Shown here: in pieces, positions 23,067 to 57,364 of the stretch
Position numbering within the stretch: position 1 is the first letter of the stretch
Layout: each line of letters starts with the position of its first letter
Source of the DNA: Thermococcus barophilus MP
GTDB taxonomy: Archaea; Methanobacteriota_B; Thermococci; Thermococcales; Thermococcaceae
Length of the DNA stretch: 64,000 bases
Direction of reading: 5' to 3'
NCBI RefSeq assembly: GCF_000151105.2
Contig: NC_014804.1
Coordinates: 868,001 to 932,000 of the forward strand
Translations under genes and position numbers: made by a program
Notes under the pieces: generated by a model
What the model saw: only the letters and a program-made list of their open reading frames with translations
Told to the model about the DNA's origin: nothing
Database searches by the model: none

Positions 23067-23250
23067 ATTTCCGCCAGCGCTTCGTGGGAAGCGAAGCTTC
23101 CCGACGTGTTGGGACAAAGTCCCAACATGCGAAGCAAAGGGCTGAAAATGTGCCCCGGGGGAGCGGAGGGAACTCACAGCTCGCCTCCGTGCTCATTCCC
23201 CACGGTTGCCCGGGGCATTATAAGTTCCTCACATTCAAACTTAAGCTTTT
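23067..23250 (+). ncRNA. Candidate GC-rich structured non-coding RNA
   Basis: A sharply GC-rich island in an AT-rich genome with strong nested stems. Domain 1: outer stem GCTTCG/CGAAGC (23079-23084 with 23130-23135) enclosing two hairpins, GGGAAGC-GAA-GCTTCCC (23086-23102) and a 9-bp stem with AAA loop (23107-23127). Domain 2: outer 9-bp stem TGCCCCGGG/CCCGGGGCA (23151-23159 with 23209-23217) enclosing CGGAGG/CCTCCG. TATA box upstream and a T6 run at 23247-23252 downstream. Not RNase P, SRP or tRNA by inspection. It could be one of the Hgc/SscA families described in Pyrococcus; I cannot assign it. Confidence 0.7.
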
Positions 23251-32936: not shown

Positions 32937-33263
32937 ATGGAAATAATCCTTCCAAAAGAGAAGTTCAAAGAGCTTAAAAAGCTCGACGAGACGGGAATCA
33001 TAAAATTAATCGAGGAAAATCTCGAAAAAGCTGAGGAAACCCTAAAAGCTGAACGAGAATCCTTCCTTAATGAAAAGAAAGCCAAGCTTGAGGAAAAGCT
33101 AAAAGAAATCGAAGAGCAACTTGAGGCTTTAGAGATGTTTTATGAAAAAGCTCTGAAAGATAAAGAGTTCATGCGTGAGATGAGTGAAAAATTAAGAAAA
33201 GAAAATGCAGCTTTGAGAAAAGAACTGGAGGAGAAAAAGCGTGCGCTTGAAAATAAAACCTGA
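32937..33263 (+). CDS. Coiled-coil protein, unknown function
   Basis: 108 aa, almost all one long charged helix of Lys/Glu heptads (KEKFKELKKLDETGIIKLIE onward). Function unknown. AAGGTGAA precedes ATG 32937. Overlaps the next ORF by 23 nt and follows the glycosylase without a gap, so an operon of at least three genes. Confidence 0.6.
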   Translation: MEIILPKEKFKELKKLDETGIIKLIEENLEKAEETLKAERESFLNEKKAKLEEKLKEIEEQLEALEMFYEKALKDKEFMREMSEKLRKENAALRKELEEKKRALENKT

Positions 33264-33636
33264 AAGGGGATTTGGAAAAATTGAGGTTGAGATTAATGAA
33301 GACCTCTGGAAGAAAATAGAAGATCTCAGCGAAAGATACAAGGTTGGTGAGGATTACATCCTAAGGATAATCCTTACTGGGGAATTTAAAACCCCAAATG
33401 AAGACGTGCAGAACCTTGAGAAAAAAGTGCAAGAGCTTGAAAAAAAGGTATATGAACTTGAAAAGAAGTGGGCACCTCTCAGATATAAAGCCTATGGAGT
33501 TAGTGAAGACAACAAAATTTTGGCTATAGAGCTGAGCGGGCTTTTGGCTGAAAACACGCAACTTAAAAGGTTTTTAAGGAAAAAGGTTGAGCCAAATTTT
33601 GAGCTTAGAAAACTTATTGAATACTACATCCGATAA
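33241..33636 (+). CDS. Hypothetical protein with ribbon-helix-helix-like N-terminus and coiled coil
   Basis: 131 aa from a GTG start. The first 55 residues (IEVEINEDLWKKIEDLSERY ... EDYILRIIL) could be a ribbon-helix-helix or short helical fold; residues 57-80 are a heptad Leu/Lys coil (LEKKVQELEKKVYELEKKW). GGAGGAG lies 9-11 nt upstream inside the previous gene. Overlap with the coiled-coil gene suggests that they pair. Function not known. Confidence 0.55.
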   Translation: MRLKIKPERGFGKIEVEINEDLWKKIEDLSERYKVGEDYILRIILTGEFKTPNEDVQNLEKKVQELEKKVYELEKKWAPLRYKAYGVSEDNKILAIELSGLLAENTQLKRFLRKKVEPNFELRKLIEYYIR

Positions 33637-33642
33637 GATTAT

Positions 33643-33700
33643 AGCGGATGATGAGTAAATTTAAGCGGAGCGATGAAGAACCCTATGAGCGCTGACGCTC
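33643..33700 (+). ncRNA. C/D box sRNA predicted to guide 2'-O-methylation of tRNA-Met C34
   Basis: Box C ATGATGA at 33648-33654, D' CGGA (33666-33669), C' GCGATGA (33670-33676), box D CTGA at 33692-33695, with a short AGCG/CGCT terminal stem. The D guide CCCTATGAGC (33681-33690) pairs perfectly over 10 bp with GCTCATAGGG of the tRNA-Met gene at 45916-45925. The nucleotide five upstream of box D (33687) pairs with 45919, the C34 of the CAT anticodon. Cm34 of elongator tRNA-Met is a known archaeal C/D target. Confidence 0.85.
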
Positions 33701-33730
33701 TATTTTCTTCTATCGGGGAGTGTGATAGCT

Positions 33731-45883: not shown

Positions 45884-45991
45884 GCCGGGGTAGCTTAGCC
45901 TGGTCAAAGCGCCCGGCTCATAGGGCGACTCCCCTTCGGGGGAGCCTGAGAAACCGGGAGATCCGGGGTTCGAAGCCCCGCCCCGGCACCA
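45884..45991 (+). tRNA. Elongator tRNA-Met(CAT) with a 30-nt intron, CCA encoded
   Basis: All arms fold: acceptor GCCGGGG/CCCCGGC (45884-45890 with 45981-45987), D stem GCTT/AAGC, anticodon stem CCCGG/CCGGG (45912-45916 with 45954-45958), T stem CGGGG/CCCCG. Anticodon CAT is at 45919-45921. About 30 extra bases (45923-45952) follow A37; they contain CTCCCC-TTCG-GGGGAG, a strong hairpin with a UUCG loop. The exact splice bases have a one-nt ambiguity because of flanking A's. An intron at 37/38 in tRNA-Met is known in Thermococcales. A88-CCA is encoded. Confidence 0.93.
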
Positions 45992-57307: not shown

Positions 57308-57364
57308 GGGCGATGATGACAATTTCGCTAGCTGAAGGTGATGACTACCCTCGCAACTGAGCTT
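57308..57364 (+). ncRNA. C/D box sRNA with D' guide matching 23S rRNA
   Basis: Textbook double guide: box C ATGATGA (57313-57319), D' CTGA (57332-57335), C' GTGATGA (57338-57344), box D CTGA (57357-57360), guides of 12 nt each and a short GGGC/GCTT terminal stem. The D' guide CAATTTCGCTAG would pair over 10 bp with UAGCGAAAUU, a universally conserved 23S rRNA segment near E. coli 1931-1940, selecting the nucleotide equal to C1934. The D guide CTACCCTCGCAA has no target that I recognise. Confidence 0.88.

Follow-up and report, generated by a model that had tools for sequence, protein, structure and literature searches.

In a 64,000-nucleotide stretch of the Thermococcus barophilus MP genome, referred to as the window in the following, we find a box C/D sRNA whose guide pairs exactly with the exon-intron junction of the elongator tRNA-Met(CAU) gene encoded in the same stretch. 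We put a probability of roughly 0.87 on the reading that this sRNA guides ribose methylation of C34 (Cm34) on the intron-bearing pre-tRNA-Met before splicing, with the intron bases conferring specificity. For the window itself, the finding is correct and already known, as the precursor principle was published earlier: the Pyrococcus sRNA sR49 guides Cm34 of tRNA-Met and also pairs with part of the intron, so that methylation must precede splicing (Grosjean 2008, PMC2584109), and an intron-containing precursor was shown to be the substrate in Haloferax (Joardar 2011, as cited in PMC5372725 and PMC4033218). The initial annotation had presented the intron dependence as a reading from this sequence, and in this respect it was anticipated by the work of 2008 and 2011. 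The comparative evidence and the introns of Hadarchaeota described below are additions to this published knowledge.

The sRNA and its target in the window

The elements of guide and target, read from the sequence unless another source is given, are as follows.

33644–33697, + strand: box C/D sRNA (Rfam sR41, RF01126; cmscan)
33648–33654, + strand: C box, ATGATGA
33666–33669, + strand: D' box, CGGA, degenerate
33673–33679, + strand: C' box, ATGAAGA
33680–33691, + strand: 12-nt spacer between C' box and D box, ACCCTATGAGCG
33681–33690, + strand: D guide, CCCTATGAGC, with G33687 as the D+5 base
33692–33695, + strand: D box, CTGA
45884–45991, + strand: intron-containing gene for elongator tRNA-Met(CAU), with the CCA end encoded (sequence and RF00005 match at 45884–45988)
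45916–45925, + strand: guide target, GCTCATA followed by GGG (exon bases 31–37 and intron bases 1–3; C34 is 45919)
45923–45952, + strand: 30-nt intron after position 37, with a canonical bulge-helix-bulge (sequence and predicted fold)

With a score of 57.6 bits against a gathering cut-off of 54 (E 1.6e-10), the sRNA belongs to the Rfam family sR41. Its C, C' and D boxes and the 12-nt spacer ahead of box D are those of an archaeal box C/D sRNA, whereas the D' box deviates from the canonical CUGA. Internal D' boxes are frequently degenerate, and this deviation is therefore not decisive; the D' guide upstream of it differs between species. The sRNA begins 7 bases past the stop codon of a gene for a small coiled-coil-like protein (33241–33636) and ends ahead of a large gene that starts at 33722. 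Elsewhere in the window, Rfam models recognize the box C/D RNA sR39 (+ strand, 57309–57362) and the box H/ACA RNA Pab160 (- strand, 23149–23216).

In Pyrococcus and its relatives, the members of sR41 have the same boxes and the same guide, CCCUAUGAGC, and the sRNA of the window does not differ from them in substance; the tRNA-Met guide of Pyrococcus goes by the name sR49 in the literature. The haloarchaeal sR-tMet (RF02163; Joardar 2011) likewise carries the guide CCCUAUGAG and targets C34 on an intron-containing precursor, but it has a longer D'-C' region, the C box UGACGA and the D box CCGA, and at 29.2 bits against a cut-off of 50 the window sRNA falls outside that family.

The tRNA-Met gene scores 54.6 bits against RF00005. 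ARAGORN lists no tRNA within the window, probably because of the intron. In the splicing motif, C32–A35 are paired with UGAG between the bulges UA/G and AA/A, an arrangement that is recovered in the predicted fold at both 70 and 85 °C.

The guide and GCTCATAGGG are exact reverse complements of each other, with no mismatch across seven exon and three intron positions. Counting upstream from box D, the fifth base is G33687; it stands opposite C45919, which is C34 of the anticodon. The initial annotation had claimed exactly this pairing, with C34 of the CAT anticodon as the target by the D+5 rule, and both claims hold over all ten bases. In the window, the 10-mer occurs twice, namely in guide and target, against 0.07 expected copies, and none of 100 shuffled sequences reached two. 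Genome-wide, six sites on both strands compare with about four expected arithmetically for a random 10-mer, so that a bare match of this length is not rare. It is rather the D+5 register, which falls on the wobble base of the anticodon, together with the conservation of the pairing that makes the match convincing.

Conservation and compensatory change of free-standing guides

In most Thermococcaceae genomes, both partners are retained. The tRNA-Met guide CCCTATGAG precedes a C/D-type D box in 89 of 94 genomes, and the five genomes that gave no guide match in the pattern search are all drafts. Likewise, CTCATAGGG followed by an intron is found in nearly all of the 94 genomes, the exceptions yielding either no match or unrelated matches only. 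Among the intron-bearing tRNA-Met genes found in the family, the initial GGG of the intron is invariant. We do not take this invariance as proof of guide-intron pairing, since intron bases 2 and 3 are also paired in the splicing motif.

One genus of the family (g4; L063–L081) at first seemed to be devoid of the guide, which proved to be an artefact of our first search pattern (TGATGA...TATGAGNNCTGA). Downstream of the same protein gene, these genomes encode two tandem sRNAs, of which the first is sR41-like with a different D guide and the second, with the C box TGACGA and the D box CCGA, carries the tRNA-Met guide. Judging from these arrangements, neighbouring sRNAs seem to have exchanged the tRNA-Met guide function. 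In T. kodakarensis, sR41 and sR42 are adjacent and were both sequenced (PMC9014305); they may represent a tandem pair of this type. The combination of C box UGACGA and D box CCGA recurs in several tRNA-Met guides (L063–L081, L237 and L240), where C.C replaces the usual U.U of the kink-turn; G.C, A.C, C.U and U.C combinations are also seen.

Outside the Thermococcaceae, separate guides with the sequence CCCTATGAG are encoded in haloarchaea, Methanosarcina, Methanothrix, Methanoperedens and two Thermoplasmatota-type genomes. Informative with regard to the intron is Methanocaldococcus, whose guide, CCGUAUGAGC, falls into the Rfam family sR3 (RF01133) and is aligned with the tRNA-Met junction in the register of the window guide. 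It differs from the latter in the base facing intron base 1, which is altered along with the intron: in Methanocaldococcus sp. SG1, an intron starting with CGG (L232) is matched by CCG in the guide (L231), a compensatory pair. The change affects the unpaired bulge base of the splicing motif. For free-standing guides, the covariation with the intron comes from one lineage. The comparison covered the lineages in which our tRNA pattern succeeded; it failed in haloarchaea and Methanosarcina, and the tRNA-Met intron of H. volcanii, at 75 nt (PMC7714728), exceeds its range.

Probable guide sequences within tRNA-Met introns of Hadarchaeota

A more extensive set of compensatory changes comes from the Hadarchaeota. 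A search pattern built on the tRNA only recovered a Hadesarchaea tRNA-Met gene with GGCTATGAGTG-CTGA in its intron, a guide that matches the gene's own junction, and a second tRNA-only search in the same order yielded two further such introns, bringing the total to three. With a more specific pattern, which left intron bases 1–3 unspecified, we detected putative intron-borne guides in no fewer than 19 of the 28 genomes of the phylum (L249–L267; for example at positions 1468–1586 of L250); the reversed control of this pattern gave no match. All eight tRNAs that we tested were confirmed as such by Rfam.

At all 19 loci, three of which are those found by the tRNA-only pattern, guide and box D lie inside the intron and the D+5 position falls on base 34. 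Pairing begins at base 31 in every case and extends through intron base 3 in 17, if wobbles are allowed, the exceptions being a mismatch at base 37 in L251 and one at intron base 3 in L267. On either side of this stretch, pairing is mostly absent at intron base 4 and, with a single wobble excepted, wholly absent at base 30. Within these limits, intron bases 1–3 vary together with the guide: compensated variants comprise GC, AU and CG at base 1, CG and UA at base 2, and CG, GC and UA at base 3, and 98.2% of the cells are paired. Double-sided changes occur in 10 cells against 2.4 in shuffles, none of 500 shuffles being as high. Guide-intron mismatches in relatives had been named beforehand as an observation that would speak against the claim; what the comparison brought to light instead were compensatory changes in its favour. 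They also support selection on the three intron pairs, which the initial annotation had correctly pointed out.

Each of these introns contains one CTGA and one ATGATG rather than a complete set of C, D', C' and D boxes. The GATGA required by the pattern is followed by TG in 19 of 19 introns, completing ATGATG, although the constancy of both boxes is biased by what the pattern demanded, save in the three genomes found with the tRNA pattern. The nearest known counterpart is the C/D guide encoded in the intron of archaeal pre-tRNA-Trp, which similarly directs Cm34 of the intron-bearing tRNA. It has a full C, D', C', D set, whereas the Hadarchaeota introns have a single D/C pair, and it resides in the intron, whereas the guide of the window is a separate gene.

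We consider it quite probable that the elongator tRNA-Met intron of Hadarchaeota encodes half a box C/D guide (guide, CTGA, a loop of 7–9 nt and ATGATG) for its own Cm34, in the same 10-bp register of seven exon and three intron bases as the Thermococcales sRNA, and that this guide has co-evolved with intron bases 1–3. Equal covariation would be expected if the intron formed an intramolecular hairpin, and such a hairpin is the predicted minimum-energy fold for three of the four introns that we folded (at 37 and 70 °C); action in cis and in trans are therefore both possible. A guide is nevertheless favoured by the precise D+5 spacing and by the presence of a C box. Another Hadarchaeota genome (G130) combines a short intron starting with GGG with a separate CCC guide (L233 and L234), which, together with the intron-borne guides, would imply that the guide has changed its location between intron and separate gene. 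Literature searches among papers outside subscription found no report of a tRNA-Met guide in Hadarchaeota or of one encoded in an intron, and these introns likely constitute a new variant.

Mechanism, specificity and alternative explanations

By analogy with the established assembly of this RNA class, the sRNA would join L7Ae, Nop5 and fibrillarin. Its D guide would then pair with the pre-tRNA-Met junction over bases 31–37 and intron bases 1–3, for which the bulge-helix-bulge would have to open, C34 and the adjacent bases being held there in pairs with the intron. Fibrillarin would methylate the ribose of C34 ahead of intron removal, and the intron bases would give the guide specificity for the elongator over the initiator and Ile2(CAU) tRNAs. 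After splicing, bases 31–40 of the elongator, the initiator (L105) and the Ile2(CAU) tRNA (L098) are identical (GCUCAUAACC), so that for a guide of such length only the intron separates them. Ile2 must receive agmatidine, not Cm, at base 34. A possible reason for the link to the intron may hence be that nothing else within the guide's reach distinguishes the three CAU tRNAs, Ile2 included; a limited literature search found no paper stating this idea, and we regard the intron-based role in specificity as inferred. Predicted energies point in the same direction. At 37 °C, the guide duplex amounts to -17.0 kcal/mol with the precursor against -8.8 kcal/mol with all three spliced forms, and net of the opening of the site, to -7.1 kcal/mol with the precursor against -2.7 kcal/mol with the spliced elongator. 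At 85 °C and without protein, the net values are about -0.5 and +0.1 kcal/mol, and the precursor is favoured by no more than some 0.6 kcal/mol.

The seven exon pairs might also suffice by themselves, in which case all three CAU tRNAs would be methylated, spliced or not, and the match to the intron would be incidental. We consider this unlikely, even though the spliced elongator tRNA retains these seven contiguous pairs, as do the initiator and Ile2 tRNAs, and PMC7668247 reports Cm34, detected by mass spectrometry, on the intron-less initiator tRNA-Met of P. furiosus. An incidental match is hard to reconcile with compensatory changes at intron bases 1–3 in both Methanocaldococcus and Hadarchaeota, the net predicted binding to spliced tRNA is weak, and in H. 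volcanii the table of Cm34 sites names elongator tRNA-Met and tRNA-Trp without the initiator. The initial annotation is supported in part: the comparison speaks for selection on the intron pairs, whereas strict intron dependence of Cm34 is unproven, given the persistence of the seven exon pairs and the report on the P. furiosus initiator.

The sRNA could instead act chiefly on the bulge-helix-bulge, opening or blocking it and thereby timing splicing, with methylation as a secondary effect. Guide binding must indeed displace the central 4-bp helix of this motif, but a splicing blocker has no need of a particular register, whereas in all lineages examined the target base coincides precisely with position D+5; we regard this explanation as very improbable. 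Least credible of all is that the tRNA-Met match arose by chance and that the real target lies elsewhere, for instance in rRNA through either guide. The roughly chance-level number of 10-mer sites in the genome would allow for it, whereas the four sites other than guide and target match no Rfam family, the D' guide is not conserved, and the D guide has kept its sequence and register across Thermococcaceae, haloarchaea, methanogens and Thermoplasmatota-type genomes.

The comparison provides sequence-only evidence for a tie between this modification of the wobble base and the intron. In the Hadarchaeota, if our reading is true, the published claim that the tRNA-Met guide always lies outside the intron ('always exonic'; PMC2584109) would fail, and tRNA-Met would have the second tRNA intron, after that of tRNA-Trp, to encode its own methylation guide. 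These introns would offer a route to studying the movement of guide RNAs into and out of introns.
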